Part shown: in pieces, positions 648-37,004 of the stretch
Layout: every line of letters starts with the position of its first letter
Numbering within the stretch: position 1 is the stretch's first letter
NCBI RefSeq assembly: GCF_000177675.1
Contig: NZ_ADGX01000084.1
Location: 1-37,004 of the forward strand
DNA: 37,004 bases
Direction of reading: 5' to 3'
From: Parafrankia sp. EUN1f
Lineage (GTDB): Bacteria > Actinomycetota > Actinomycetes > Frankiales > Frankiaceae
Made by a program: the position numbers and the translations under genes
Notes under the pieces: generated by a model
Databases searched by the model: none
Seen by the model: only the letters and a program-made list of their open reading frames with translations
What the model was told of the DNA's origin: nothing

Positions 648-2141
648 CTAGTCGGCGATCTCGTCGAGCTGCGCCCGGAACCACGCGCGCGGCGGCAGCT
701 GCGCGGCGATCGCGGCGAGCCGCCCGGTCCGGGCGCACCGTTGCGCCGGGTCCATGGTCAGCGCGGTGTGCATCGCCTCCGCGGTGGCGGTGACGTCGAA
801 CGGGTTCACCACCAGGGCGTCGGCGGACATCTGCGAACAGGCGCCGGCCTCCCGGGAGAGGATGAGAACGGCGTTCTCTGTGGAGACCACCATCCCCTCC
901 TTCGCGACGAGGTTCATCCCGTCCCGGATGGGGTTGACCACCAGGACGTCCGCCAGGCTCATCGCGGCCAGCGAGCGCGGGAAGTCATCGCTGATCTCCA
1001 GGTGCACGGGCAGCCAGCTCTCGGTGCCGAACTCGGCCTCGATCTCCGCCGCGATGCGCTGCACGGCCGCGGTGTACTCGCGGTACTCGGGCAGATCGTG
1101 CCGCGACGGGTACGCGCAGACCAGATGCATCACCCGCCCATGCCATTCCGGATGTGTGCGCAGCAGCTCGCGGTAGGCGTCCAGCCCGCGGACGATGTTC
1201 TTCGACAGCTCGGTGCGGTCGACCCGCACCACCAGCCGGCAGCCACCGGCCAGCTCACGCAGCTCAGCCACCCGGGCCTGCACATCCGGCCGGGTGGCGC
1301 GGTCCCGCAGCTCGGCGGCGTCCACGCCGAGCGGGTAGAGGCTCGTCCGCACCGTGCGCCCGCCGGCCGAGACCGCATCGCCCTCGACCGTGGCGCCCAG
1401 GATCTCGGCGCAGCACTCCCGGAAGGCCTCCGCCCAGGCGGGGGCGAGGAAACCGAGCCGGTCTGCTCCGAGCATGCCCTTCAGGATGGCCGCCGCCACC
1501 GAGTCGGGCAGCATCCGGAAGTACTGCGGCGGCGACCAGGGTGTGTGGCTGAAGTGGGCGATGCGCACATCCGGCCGGATCGCGCGCAGCAGCGCCGGCA
1601 CCAGCGTCAGGTGATAGTCCTGGACCAGGACGCACGCCCCCGGCGCGGCCTGCTCGGCGAGCGCCTCGGCAAAGGCGGCGTTGTAGTCCTCATAGGCTGC
1701 CCAGTCCTGCCGGAACGACGCCCCGAAGCTCGGTTCCGTCGACGGCGAGTGCAACAGGTGCAGGACGAACCAGAGCGTCCGGTTGGCGACCGCGTTGTAG
1801 GCGCGGTCGAACAGCACCCGGTCCAGGTCGAGCATGCGGACCGAGGCACCGCCGGTGTCGTAGCCGGCCTGGTCGATGCGGCCGCCCGGCGCCGAGCGGG
1901 CGGCCCGGCGGTCGGCCTCGCTGAGCGCGGTGCAGACCCACAGCAGCTCGCCGCCGTCCTCGGGCGCGTCCTGCACGACCTGGGCGAGGCCGCTGACCAG
2001 GCCGCCGCCACCGCGCCGAGGGACCAGCAGGCCGTCATCCCCAACCGCGAAGGAGACCGGACCCCGGTTCGACGCGACCAGCAGGTCGGCCTGGAACGAG
2101 CCGGCACCGGCCTGCGCCGCGAGCTCCCCGATGCCCGGCAT
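648..2141 (-). CDS. otsA: GT20-family glycosyltransferase, trehalose-6-phosphate synthase-like (divergent OtsA)
   Basis: A 497-residue cytosolic enzyme of the GT20 family, which joins a nucleotide-activated sugar to a sugar phosphate, classically UDP-glucose plus glucose-6-phosphate to trehalose-6-phosphate. Visible family marks are SNRGPVSF at 24-31 (phosphate-binding N-terminal loop), QDYHL at 174-178 and DGMNLVAKE in the C-terminal nucleotide-sugar site. The usual OtsA signature VDRLDYSKG is replaced by VDRTELSKN at 307-315, and the HIPFP motif by SHTPWSPP. These features resemble the divergent actinobacterial OtsA branch that also contains the pseudoglycosyltransferase VldE. The ATG at 2141 was chosen because the homologous N-terminus starts just before SNRGP; an ATG at 2192 would add 17 residues running into the upstream hairpins. 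A HAD phosphatase lies immediately upstream. The exact product is not certain. Confidence 0.8.
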   Translation of the reverse strand: MPGIGELAAQAGAGSFQADLLVASNRGPVSFAVGDDGLLVPRRGGGGLVSGLAQVVQDAPEDGGELLWVCTALSEADRRAARSAPGGRIDQAGYDTGGASVRMLDLDRVLFDRAYNAVANRTLWFVLHLLHSPSTEPSFGASFRQDWAAYEDYNAAFAEALAEQAAPGACVLVQDYHLTLVPALLRAIRPDVRIAHFSHTPWSPPQYFRMLPDSVAAAILKGMLGADRLGFLAPAWAEAFRECCAEILGATVEGDAVSAGGRTVRTSLYPLGVDAAELRDRATRPDVQARVAELRELAGGCRLVVRVDRTELSKNIVRGLDAYRELLRTHPEWHGRVMHLVCAYPSRHDLPEYREYTAAVQRIAAEIEAEFGTESWLPVHLEISDDFPRSLAAMSLADVLVVNPIRDGMNLVAKEGMVVSTENAVLILSREAGACSQMSADALVVNPFDVTATAEAMHTALTMDPAQRCARTGRLAAIAAQLPPRAWFRAQLDEIAD

Positions 2142-2219
2142 GTGACGCACACAGCGGAGCGTAGGACATCGAGCGCCCCGTCGGGGTGTCATCCCCGCAC
2201 GGCGGGGCTATCGGGCTGC

Positions 2220-2261: not shown

Positions 2262-3068
2262 TTACCGGCCGTCGATGGCGCTGCGGACGGCGCTCGCCCA
2301 GCCCAGCCCGACCGCGTCCGACTCGACCACCACGTTGTCGTGCGTGGTGAGCAGCTCGGCGATGTCGGGATGGCGCACCGCGTTGGCCACCAGGTGCATC
2401 CGGCCCACCGAACGAGCCATCTCCAGATCACTGGCCGAGTCACCGATGGCGATGGCGTCGGCCGGGTCGATCCCGCGCCGCTTCAGGTCGTAGGCCACCG
2501 CCTCGCCCTTGCTGACACCGTCCGGCACCAGGTGATAGACGTGAGGTACCTCACCGAGGTCGGGCATGTTCGCCGGCGAGACCAGCCCGTTGTCACGCAT
2601 GCTCAGCCAGCCGAAACCGGTTTCGGCGAGCCATTCGTCCACCTCGGTGACGTTGATCTTGCCGCGCAGCATGACGTCGATCTCCCGGCCCGCGTGCCAG
2701 GGCGAATGCAGCTCGAGGCGACCGGGGTGGAGCCGGATCAGCTCGTCGAGCAGGCTCTCCGGCACCTGCGCGTAGGAATCCGGCATGGCCCCGCGCAGGA
2801 TCTCGCTGTCGAGCCAGGTTCCGCTGGTCCACCCGACGATGGCGCCGAGCTCCCCGATGAACCCGTCCGCGCCGAAGATCCCGGCGGCCTCCACGAGCTG
2901 CGGCCGCGTCCGCCCCGAGACCAGGACCAGCGCGACGCCGGCCTCATGCAGGTCCACCAGCGCGCGGGCCGGCTCCAGGGTGCTGGCCCCGTCTTCGGAA
3001 CGGAAGAAGCATCCACGCGGGCCGACCATCGTTCCGTCAAGATCGGTATAGACGATCCGTACAGGCAC
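2262..3068 (-). CDS. HAD-superfamily (subclass IIB) sugar phosphatase
   Basis: A 268-residue cytosolic phosphatase. Near the N-terminus YTDLDGT supplies the nucleophile Asp9 and acid/base Asp11. VLVSGRTR is motif II, the Lys of VSKGEAV is motif III, and GDSASDLEM is the Mg-binding motif IV; the central part fits the IIB cap of Cof-type and mannosyl-3-phosphoglycerate phosphatases. GTG at 3068 is preferred because GAGGGAG lies 8 nt upstream, whereas an earlier ATG at 3125 adds 19 unconserved residues. It precedes the GT20 glycosyltransferase on the same strand, so it may dephosphorylate that enzyme's product. This is inferred from neighbourhood; the trehalose-6-phosphate phosphatase OtsB is a related HAD-IIB enzyme, but this protein is not a close OtsB by motif. 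Confidence 0.8.
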   Translation of the reverse strand: MPVRIVYTDLDGTMVGPRGCFFRSEDGASTLEPARALVDLHEAGVALVLVSGRTRPQLVEAAGIFGADGFIGELGAIVGWTSGTWLDSEILRGAMPDSYAQVPESLLDELIRLHPGRLELHSPWHAGREIDVMLRGKINVTEVDEWLAETGFGWLSMRDNGLVSPANMPDLGEVPHVYHLVPDGVSKGEAVAYDLKRRGIDPADAIAIGDSASDLEMARSVGRMHLVANAVRHPDIAELLTTHDNVVVESDAVGLGWASAVRSAIDGR

Positions 3069-3141
3069 GCTTACGTCTCCCTCGGTTCGTGACGCCCGTC
3101 CGACCCCACAAACTACGGTGCACACCCGCCCACACGCGGAC

Positions 3142-3147
3142 TACAGT
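3142..3147 (+). promoter_or_regulatory. Possible -10 element (TACAGT) for the riboswitch-thrC transcript
   Basis: TACAGT fits the TAnnnT pattern and would place the transcript start near 3154, about ten bases before the riboswitch begins. No convincing -35 box is seen. The 96-bp interval also has to hold the promoter of the divergent HAD gene. Confidence 0.3.
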
Positions 3148-3164
3148 ACGGACAGACAACTTCA

Positions 3165-3288
3165 TCTGGCTCATCCAGAGGGGCAGAGGGAACGGCCCAG
3201 CGAAGCCCCGGCAACCACCGACGCGATCCTGCGCGGCAGGTGCTAATTCCGACCCGGGACGCAGCCGGCGCCCGGGAAAGATGAGGAG
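3165..3288 (+). promoter_or_regulatory. SAM riboswitch (S-box, SAM-I type) in the thrC leader
   Basis: The conserved SAM-I core is present in order. P1 5' strand CTCATC is at 3170-3175. P2 GGGGC 3180-3184 pairs with GCCCC 3205-3209, enclosing the AGAGGGAACGGCCC kink-turn side. The core CCCCGGCAACC is followed by a P3 hairpin and GGTGCTAATTCC ending at 3250. P4 has arms CCCGGG at 3253-3258 and 3271-3276. AAAGATGAG ends with the P1 3' strand GATGAG at 3280-3285. Presence of P4 argues for SAM-I rather than SAM-IV. The P1 3' strand overlaps the Shine-Dalgarno GAGGAG (3283-3288), which suggests SAM binding hides the ribosome site and lowers thrC translation. A rival hairpin, TCTGG 3165-3169 with CCAGA 3175-3179, would hold the P1 5' strand in its loop and may be the alternative state. 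Confidence 0.88.
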
Positions 3289-3295
3289 TTCACGC

Positions 3296-4573
3296 ATGAC
3301 TCTCGCGCCCGAGCGCGCCACTCTCCCGAGCCCGGATACCGCGAACCCCGCTGTTTCGCTGTCCTGTCGCCACTGCGGAGCCACCTATCCGCTGGGCCCG
3401 ACGCACGTCTGTGTCGAGTGTTTTGCGCCACTCGAGATCTCCTACGACGAGGACCGGCTGCGCCGGGTCACCCGCGAGTCGATCGAGGCCGGCCCGCAGA
3501 ACCTGTGGCGCTACGTGGGGCTGCTGCCCGCCGGGCACGTCGCCGAGCGGCGGGTCTCGCTGGGGGCCGGCTGGACGCCGCTGCGGCCCGCGCCGCGGCT
3601 GGCCGCCGAGCTGGGCATGCGCACCCTGTGGGTGAAGGACGACAGCGCCAACCCGACTCACTCGTTCAAGGACCGGGTCGTCTCGGTCGCCCTCACCGCC
3701 GCCCGTGACCTCGGTTTCACCACCGTGGCCTGCGCGTCCACCGGCAACCTCGCCCAGTCGGTGGCCGCCCACGCGGCATCCGCCGGGCTGCGCTCGATCG
3801 TGCTCGTCCCGCACGACCTGGAGGCCGGCAAGACCGTGTCGACCGCGGTCTACGGCGGCACGCTCGTCGCCATCCAGGGCAACTACGACGATGTGAACCG
3901 GCTGTGCAGCGAGCTCGCCGGCGAGTACGAGTGGGCGTTCGTCAACGTCAACGTGCGGCCGTTCTACGCCGAGGGCTCGAAGACCCTCGGGTACGAGGTC
4001 GCCGAGCAGCTCGGCTGGCGGCTCCCCGGCCAGGTCGTCGTCCCGATCGCGTCCGGGTCGCTGCTCACCAAGGTCGACAAGGCCTTCGGTGAGCTGGGCA
4101 AGCTCGGCCTGGTCGAGCCCACCCCGTACAAGGTCTTCGGCGCCCAGGCCGCCGGCTGCAACCCGGTCGCCTCCGCGTTCGCCCGCGGCGTCGACACGGT
4201 GTCCCCGGTGAAGCCGTCCACCATCGCCAAGTCACTGTCGATCGGCAACCCGGCGGATGGCCCGTACGCCCTCGACGTCGCCCGCCGCACCGGCGGCGCG
4301 ATCACGGACGTCACCGACGAGCAGATCGTCGACGGCATCCGCCTGCTCGCCCGCACCGAGGGCATCTTCGGCGAGACCGCCGGCGGCGTCACCGTCGCCT
4401 GCCTGCGCCGCCTGCTGGACGAAGGCCGCCTCGACCCGGACGTCGAGACCGTCATCTACAACACCGGCGACGGCCTCAAGACCCTCGACCCGCTGGTGCC
4501 CACCGGCGGCCCGACCGCGACGATCCGGCCCTCGCTGTCCGCCTTCGAGGCCGCCGGCCTCGGCGACGACTAG
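3296..4573 (+). CDS. thrC: Threonine synthase (PLP-dependent, zinc-ribbon type)
   Basis: A 425-residue fold-type II PLP enzyme that converts O-phosphohomoserine to threonine. The N-terminus has a zinc-ribbon-like C24-x2-C27 and C39-x2-C42 pair. The PLP lysine is K125 in HSFKDR; the ASTGN loop and the phosphate-cradling IASGSLLTK and NTGDGLK segments follow. ATG 3296 is set by GAGGAG 7 nt upstream; the frame is open further left, but that stretch is the riboswitch. The gene is alone between the SAM riboswitch and a terminator. SAM control is expected for methionine genes, so its use here links threonine synthesis to methionine/SAM status. Related zinc-ribbon enzymes include cysteate synthases, so a side activity or different phosphorylated substrate cannot be excluded from sequence. 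Confidence 0.9.
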   Translation: MTLAPERATLPSPDTANPAVSLSCRHCGATYPLGPTHVCVECFAPLEISYDEDRLRRVTRESIEAGPQNLWRYVGLLPAGHVAERRVSLGAGWTPLRPAPRLAAELGMRTLWVKDDSANPTHSFKDRVVSVALTAARDLGFTTVACASTGNLAQSVAAHAASAGLRSIVLVPHDLEAGKTVSTAVYGGTLVAIQGNYDDVNRLCSELAGEYEWAFVNVNVRPFYAEGSKTLGYEVAEQLGWRLPGQVVVPIASGSLLTKVDKAFGELGKLGLVEPTPYKVFGAQAAGCNPVASAFARGVDTVSPVKPSTIAKSLSIGNPADGPYALDVARRTGGAITDVTDEQIVDGIRLLARTEGIFGETAGGVTVACLRRLLDEGRLDPDVETVIYNTGDGLKTLDPLVPTGGPTATIRPSLSAFEAAGLGDD

Positions 4574-36546: not shown

Positions 36547-37004
36547 AAGGGGCGGGTGCGAGCGTGACGTTCCGCGGCCAGGCGGTTGCCTCGTCGTAGG
36601 GGGTATGGGTCTTGAGGCAGCCATGGAGGATGCCGACCAGGCGGTTGCCGAGCTGGCGGAGGGCGGCGTGGTGGGACTTGCCGCGTCCGCGGACGGTGTC
36701 GTAGTAGGCACGGGCGCCGGGCGAGGCGTTCAGGGCGCAGAAGGCCTGCTGGTGCAGGGCGTCGGCGAGCCGGTTGTTGCGGGCGTAGCGGGCCATGACC
36801 ACGGTCTTGCGGCCTGAGGCGCGGGTGATCGGGCTGGTGCCGGCGTAGTTGCGGCGGGCTTTGGCGTCGGTGTAGCGCTTCGGGTCGTCCCCGAACTCGG
36901 CGAGCACCCGGGCAGCGAGGACCGTGCCCAGGCCGGGCTGGGACAGCAGGACCTCAGCGTCCGGGTGCTCGCCAAAATGGGCTTCGACCTGCTCCTCGAG
37001 GCGG
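36545..37004 (-). CDS. IS110-family (IS116/IS902-like) transposase, C-terminal part
   Basis: The frame is open from the right edge to a TGA at 36545-36547, giving 152 residues. It contains the Transposase_20 domain: LLSQPGLGTVLAARVLAEFGD, a helix-hairpin-helix-like DNA-binding part, then RYTDAKARRNYAGTSPITRASGRKTVVMARYARNNRLADALHQQA. The Ser in RASGRK is at the position of the catalytic serine of IS110 recombinases, which work with an N-terminal RuvC-like DEDD domain (not in view) and an element-encoded bridge RNA. No premature stop is seen, so the element may be intact outside the window. Confidence 0.92.
   Translation of the reverse strand, partial: RLEEQVEAHFGEHPDAEVLLSQPGLGTVLAARVLAEFGDDPKRYTDAKARRNYAGTSPITRASGRKTVVMARYARNNRLADALHQQAFCALNASPGARAYYDTVRGRGKSHHAALRQLGNRLVGILHGCLKTHTPYDEATAWPRNVTLAPAP

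Follow-up and report, generated by a model that had tools for sequence, protein, structure and literature searches.

Hasebe et al. are said to have found in 2024 that MetM converts O-phosphohomoserine and thiocarboxylated MetO into homocysteine. The available part of PMC12172450 credits that work with recognizing in Streptomyces a new kind of homocysteine synthase, MetM, places a SAM riboswitch upstream of metM in S. albulus, and describes the product of the metO-like neighbour as a putative sulfur carrier. In S. coelicolor, an ARG box has been printed for the "putative threonine synthase" gene SCO4293 (PMC5839063). The accessible portions of PMC3293853 and PMC5839063 describe SCO4293 as an ArgR target and make no mention of a riboswitch, and the first of them assigns it to the same five-gene expression type as the cysteine desulfurase gene SCO2146. 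In the Xanthomonas met operon, a SAM-I riboswitch acts at translation initiation by means of an expression-platform hairpin that hides the Shine-Dalgarno (SD) sequence (PMC7270179, available part). Among other members of the SAM clan, the accessible text of PMC6890682 describes SAM-IV RNAs as having P5, lacking the P4 of SAM-I and forming a new pseudoknot, PK-2, in which a strand next to P3 pairs with the 3' end, and SAM-I/IV RNAs as having P4 and lacking PK-1.

Here we compare with these systems a locus of Parafrankia sp. EUN1f (Frankiaceae), in a stretch of DNA (the window) of 37,004 nucleotides comprising positions 1 to 37,004 of the forward strand of contig NZ_ADGX01000084.1 (assembly GCF_000177675.1). 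The riboswitch of this locus is a genuine SAM-I element; the name given to its gene misleads, and the regulatory logic is ordinary. Very probably, the riboswitch turns off translation of metM, encoding a homocysteine synthase that draws O-phosphohomoserine from the threonine branch. Like S. albulus, EUN1f has a gene of the metM clade (a relationship drawn by way of the family f3 loci) preceded by a SAM riboswitch, but in Frankiaceae metO is not adjacent, P3 of the window leader is short, and in EUN1f the enzyme coexists with MetX and MetY. Control would be exerted at translation initiation, as in Xanthomonas, but in EUN1f P1 itself contains the SD sequence (compare PMC7270179). Many metM leaders have a helix from the P3 loop to the 3' side that is similar to PK-2 of SAM-IV, whereas they keep P4, and the window leader is without this helix (compare PMC6890682). 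A literature search combining Frankia, SAM riboswitch and methionine found no paper. The label "threonine synthase" hides a probable methionine route in these nitrogen-fixing bacteria.

The closing helix of a SAM-I riboswitch contains the Shine-Dalgarno sequence

The sequence-only reading of this DNA had recognized a complete SAM-I core, P4 included, and covariance searching bore this out. The Rfam SAM-I model RF00162 matched window positions 3168 to 3287 on the forward strand with 73.9 bits (E 1.1e-15; cut-off 44.4), and the alignment was full length (positions 1 to 108), with P1 to P4 all aligned. This is the one SAM-I match in the whole EUN1f genome (9.35 Mb, 99% complete). All parts of this S-box aptamer lie on the forward strand: the P1 5' strand CTCATC (3170 to 3175), AGAG (3177 to 3180) and GCAACC (3211 to 3216), a short P3 occupying the 22 nt between GCAACC and GGTGC (3217 to 3238), GGTGC itself (3239 to 3243), the P4 hairpin (3253 to 3276, with CCCGGG at 3253 to 3258 and again at 3271 to 3276) and the P1 3' strand GATGAG (3280 to 3285). 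P4 is thus placed between J3/4 and P1, as SAM-I requires. Candidate letters for PK-1, between the P2 loop and J3/4, were read by eye; they are CGG/CCG in the window, CCGG/CCGG in locus L198 and ACGG/CCGT in L200. SAM-IV (RF00634) was considered for the window leader and rejected, RF00162 being the clan match kept there and P4 being present; across the EUN1f genome, RF00634 found a match on contig C366 only.

The SD sequence GAGGAG (3283 to 3288, forward strand) overlaps the P1 3' strand at exactly the coordinates that had been proposed, and the metM start codon, ATG (3296 to 3298), follows the end of the aptamer by 8 bases. With P1 closed, ribosomes could not start, as the SD sequence would be held within its 3' strand. 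No terminator-like site lies within window positions 3040 to 3400; transcription termination was rejected on that ground, and this result and the short distance from aptamer to ATG together suggest control of translation (or of RNA stability). SAM stabilizes P1 in SAM-I RNAs. Given this known behavior and the overlap of P1 with the SD sequence, the switch is expected, by analogy, to be OFF in the presence of SAM. Judged from the sequence, the leader should bind SAM and switch as follows. When SAM is abundant, the aptamer would bind it and P1 would close, sequestering the SD sequence, blocking ribosomes and lowering homocysteine synthesis, and with metM off, the genuine ThrC would have O-phosphohomoserine to itself. 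A shortage of SAM would let P1 open and metM be translated, restoring homocysteine, methionine and SAM.

In ligand-free folding, the SD sequence was mostly paired, partly via a competing upstream CUUCAUC, so an OFF/ON contrast is not demonstrable by energy models alone. With the P1 3' strand held open, the minimum free energy fold contains a candidate anti-P1 hairpin, TCTGG-CTCAT-CCAGA (3165 to 3179, forward strand), which might conceivably sequester the P1 5' strand when SAM is absent; by eye, the hairpin is present in Frankia and Parafrankia leaders and in none from Protofrankia or other families. Further upstream, a −10-like TACAGT (3142 to 3147, forward strand), which by eye recurs in Frankiaceae leaders, would place the RNA start about 15 nt before P1; a consensus scan found no sigma-70 site.

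The riboswitch-controlled gene belongs to the MetM clade

The gene behind the riboswitch (3296 to 4573, forward strand) encodes a 425-amino-acid protein that matches the PLP fold-II family PALP (232.9 bits) and has a cysteine-rich N-terminal stretch that by eye resembles a zinc ribbon. Its closest named relatives are from Parafrankia (95 and 94% identity) and then from other Frankiaceae (mostly 87 to 90%). Its score against TIGR00260 (thrC) is 264.8 bits, above the equivalog cut-off of 167.1, so that by name transfer it would be called threonine synthase; the nearest solved structures are likewise threonine synthases. EUN1f encodes another threonine synthase, L002, which is 40% identical to the product of the riboswitch gene, scores 309.8 bits against TIGR00260 and lies between the homoserine dehydrogenase and homoserine kinase genes in a hom-thrC-thrB operon. 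We rejected the identification of the riboswitch gene with the operon thrC, since the operon copy is L002, elsewhere in the genome and only this distantly related; SAM-I control of the operon thrC was rejected as well, since the riboswitch gene is separate and the sole SAM-I match of the genome is not at the operon.

Relatives of the riboswitch gene with 52 to 66% identity form a block, here called the MetM block, that is represented in 139 of 396 phylum-sample genomes, EUN1f included; the next listed group stands at 35 to 40%. In a tree of 47 proteins, from which the program excluded L158, the 36 MetM-like rows are set apart from the rest by a branch with support 100/99, at which, the program warns, long branches (L002 and another) join. 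Five rows of family f3 lie inside this clade. The ARG box of SCO4293 is letter-identical to the sequence at the start codon of two f3 loci, L110 and L295, which identifies f3 as Streptomyces and ties the MetM block to SCO4293.

The riboswitch gene thus most likely encodes a homocysteine synthase of the MetM type, with O-phosphohomoserine as substrate, its activity in Frankia being predicted by analogy with the Streptomyces enzyme, and we call it metM. On this assignment, TIGR00260 fails to separate MetM from ThrC, and a SAM-I-controlled "threonine synthase" of the MetM clade should be read as metM in many Actinomycetota. The sequence-only reading had named the gene threonine synthase and had found its repression by SAM counter-intuitive. 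The name is not borne out, as the operon thrC is L002 and the riboswitch gene lies in a separate clade with SAM-I-controlled Streptomyces genes; the puzzle dissolves, since repression by SAM is what a methionine-pathway enzyme would call for.

Other homocysteine routes in Frankiaceae

MetM would share the task of making homocysteine in EUN1f, whose genome has adjacent genes for MetX and MetY, a further MetY and a protein of the cystathionine gamma-synthase type. Across Frankiaceae, MetX is above the cut-off in 29 of 35 genomes and present as fragments only in three (G650, G532 and G703). The other three (G410, G556 and G682, 99 to 100% complete) gave only weak partial matches to MetX, are without MetA/HTS, and contain metM. 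These MetX and MetA/HTS results suggest that MetM can serve as the sole acyl-free route, and the three are natural genomes in which to test it. In the phylum sample of 396 genomes, 37 have both MetM and MetX, 102 MetM only, 110 MetX only and 147 neither (Fisher p 0.0016, a value that is no test of dependence because the genomes are related to each other). A SAM-I match also lies just upstream of metX in G026:C2, G098:C28 and G195:C1 (f19), all without a MetM-block match; judging from f19, the same kind of switch seems to control the entry into homocysteine synthesis, whichever one a genome relies on.

Alternative readings of the switch and of the enzyme

That SAM switches metM translation ON is highly improbable. 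The pairing of the SD sequence in the ligand-free fold would suit such a switch, but it is P1, the helix that SAM stabilizes in SAM-I RNAs, that itself contains the SD sequence. The chance that the enzyme is cysteate-synthase-like and uses O-phosphoserine is close to negligible: the protein does match TIGR03844, but weakly (46.6 bits against a cut-off of 324.9), and it falls in one clade with metM. An ON switch and repression of the whole aspartate branch had both been offered in the sequence-only reading to explain SAM control, and neither is needed once the gene is metM. Its third suggestion, that the zinc-ribbon enzyme does something other than make threonine, is supported, in the form of a probable MetM-type activity; the cysteate-synthase part of it falls.

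The remaining readings keep threonine synthesis in play, one as the sole function and one as a second. On the former, the gene would be a second threonine synthase in a cell that lowers its whole aspartate branch when SAM is high, as the TIGR00260 score and the nearest solved structures would allow; but the genome has a thrC with hom and thrB, its one SAM-I match is not there, and the riboswitch gene forms a separate clade. In addition, the available part of PMC12172450 gives homocysteine synthase as the function of the Streptomyces type, and the three relatives without MetX and MetA retain metM. We regard a plain second ThrC as quite improbable on these grounds. A bifunctional enzyme, a threonine synthase that also makes homocysteine according to the sulfur donor, would draw on O-phosphohomoserine for both activities, and a cyanobacterial ThrC that is 51.6% identical to S. 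albulus MetM is described as having threonine synthase activity (PMC12172450, available part). SAM control and the presence of another ThrC in the EUN1f genome speak against dual function, which we think unlikely while allowing it appreciable weight.

Conservation of the leader across Actinomycetota

The arrangement proposed for EUN1f, a SAM-I riboswitch repressing metM by way of P1, recurs in orthologous leaders. metM was found in 220 of 345 class genomes, and all 100 of the class leaders examined scored above the RF00162 cut-off; these were taken down the list of 220, leaving out loci in other sets, two truncated by contig boundaries and the last part of that list. In the phylum sample, 32 of 40 metM loci (drawn from 139 genomes) had RF00162 above the cut-off, and no match exceeded it at L099, L101, L106, L115, L164, L167, L172 and L173. 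Among 101 leaders (the 100 of the class and the window), 88 have GATGA[GA][GA] where P1 ends; in 100, no more than 27 nt separate the aptamer end from the first ATG or GTG, whether or not it is the true start; and a T5 run before that codon occurs in none. Given the motif, the close start and the lack of a T5 run, the predicted P1-over-SD design is widespread in the class. All 21 Frankiaceae leaders, the window included, have GATGAGGAG at the P1 end (four more with a long P3 are outside the count), a number to be read with the fact that protein-relative loci and class loci overlap in species, so that Frankiaceae counts are not all independent. Terminator-like hairpins were seen by eye at some loci of other classes (L113, L117, L118 and L124).

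A putative covarying P3-loop pseudoknot in many relatives with a long P3

Many leaders with a P3 of at least 30 nt have a P3 loop that could pair with the stretch immediately following the SD sequence on its 3' side. The typical pair is GCGAGGCC with GGCCTCGC; others are GCGAGGCTC/GGGCCTCGC in f3, ACGAGGCC/GGCCTCGT in L248, GCGGAGAC/GTCTCCGC in L245 and L247, GTGCGAGGCG/CGCCTCGCAT in L286 and AGAGGCC/GGCCTCT in L091. The letters on the two sides covary between leaders (L105, L110, L245, L247, L248, L286 and others). In a comparison of loop letters across 110 loci, 12 were off pattern and were skipped. A helix score of at least 20 was reached by 35 of 72 long-P3 leaders, in 13 of 25 families, and by 186 of 3,600 shuffled loops; the other 37 long-P3 leaders, including five of six in f82, all five in f86 and all three in f91, scored below 20. 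None of 10,000 random re-pairings reached the mean pairing score of the long-P3 leaders, and in 300 draws of a single leader from each of the 25 families the permutation p never exceeded 0.006. Among the 29 short-P3 leaders, which include the window, 7,527 of 10,000 re-pairings reached the observed mean, and the pseudoknot was sought and not found in the window leader itself.

A PK-2-like helix on a P4-bearing SAM-I core would add to the combinations of elements in the SAM clan; the covarying extra pseudoknot of these relatives bridges SAM-I and SAM-IV architecture. Our limited search, including the accessible portions of PMC6890682 and PMC2864571, found no description of a P3-loop second pseudoknot on a P4-bearing SAM-I RNA, a weak indication of novelty. 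We tentatively propose that many Actinomycetes metM leaders form a SAM-I subtype with P4 and a P3-loop/post-SD pseudoknot, the SD sequence being held from both sides by P1 and the pseudoknot, and that Frankiaceae such as EUN1f do without both the pseudoknot and an adjacent metO, relying on CysO to carry sulfur for cysteine and homocysteine synthesis alike; our doubts about this combined picture slightly outweigh our confidence in it. In L080, L097 and L103, the first two from Micromonospora, the P3 loop repeats CTCATC, the letters of the P1 5' strand, which would allow it to pair with GATGAG on the 3' side of P1. A match by eye between CGACG in the P4 loop and CGTCG after the SD sequence in Geodermatophilaceae was set aside as uninformative because it looks invariant.

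A possible sulfur carrier for MetM in Frankiaceae

A MetO-like gene lies directly downstream of metM in all 10 f3 loci, in 46 of 59 non-f3 loci of the phylum sample and in one of 53 other protein-relative loci with enough sequence; in Frankiaceae, metO is beside metM in none of 51 loci with enough sequence. An adjacent metO is the usual companion of metM in other families and no proof of identity, and Frankiaceae metM raises the question of which sulfur carrier serves without it. Carriers were searched for at E 1e-6 with the last 95 residues of EUN1f CysO (the first 23 missing, the tail after Gly-Gly included), a query that leaves distant carriers uncounted. By this measure, nine of 12 Frankiaceae genomes have one CysO-like carrier and the other three have a distant second carrier, away from metM, while all 11 f3 genomes have two carriers, one of them beside metM.

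The EUN1f cysO gene (contig C298; locus L016, 1429 to 1785, reverse strand) adjoins a JAB-domain gene and a cysteine synthase gene, and its product is up to 49.5% identical to f3 MetO. CysO has 23 residues beyond Gly-Gly, so it would need trimming before carrying sulfur; the full tail is matched in G442 alone, and most other carrier matches stop near Gly-Gly. The adjacent JAB-domain protein, which we take to be a Mec-like protease, is a candidate for this trimming. Since no metO adjoins metM in Frankiaceae, MetM there probably takes its sulfur from CysO or free sulfide; CysO as a donor shared by cysteine and homocysteine synthesis is a plausible reading, with free sulfide as the alternative.

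The sole SAM-IV match of EUN1f (contig C366, bases 55931 to 56046, locus L128; 103.4 bits) precedes a gene for a SufS-type cysteine desulfurase-like protein (TIGR01979 290.2 bits, below the cut-off of 475.1), plausibly a sulfur supplier. With a SAM-IV RNA ahead of such a gene, SAM may turn off the MetM route at two points, metM and the desulfurase.

Neighborhood of metM

Divergent from metM in the window lies a gene for a HAD-IIB phosphatase (2262 to 3125, reverse strand); the window also has a GT20 trehalose-phosphate-synthase-like gene (648 to 2192, reverse strand). By eye, a HAD-like motif on the reverse strand also stands beside metM in remote f18 loci without the GCAACC core (L099, L101, L106, L115 and L119), and the HAD/metM neighborhood may therefore be old. 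Near the other end of the window, the Rfam small RNA family Ms_AS-4 matches positions 36860 to 36941 on the forward strand with 75.2 bits; the opposite strand of the match carries a transposase frame of the IS110 family (PF02371, 55.2 bits), so this RNA family may simply be transposase coding sequence.
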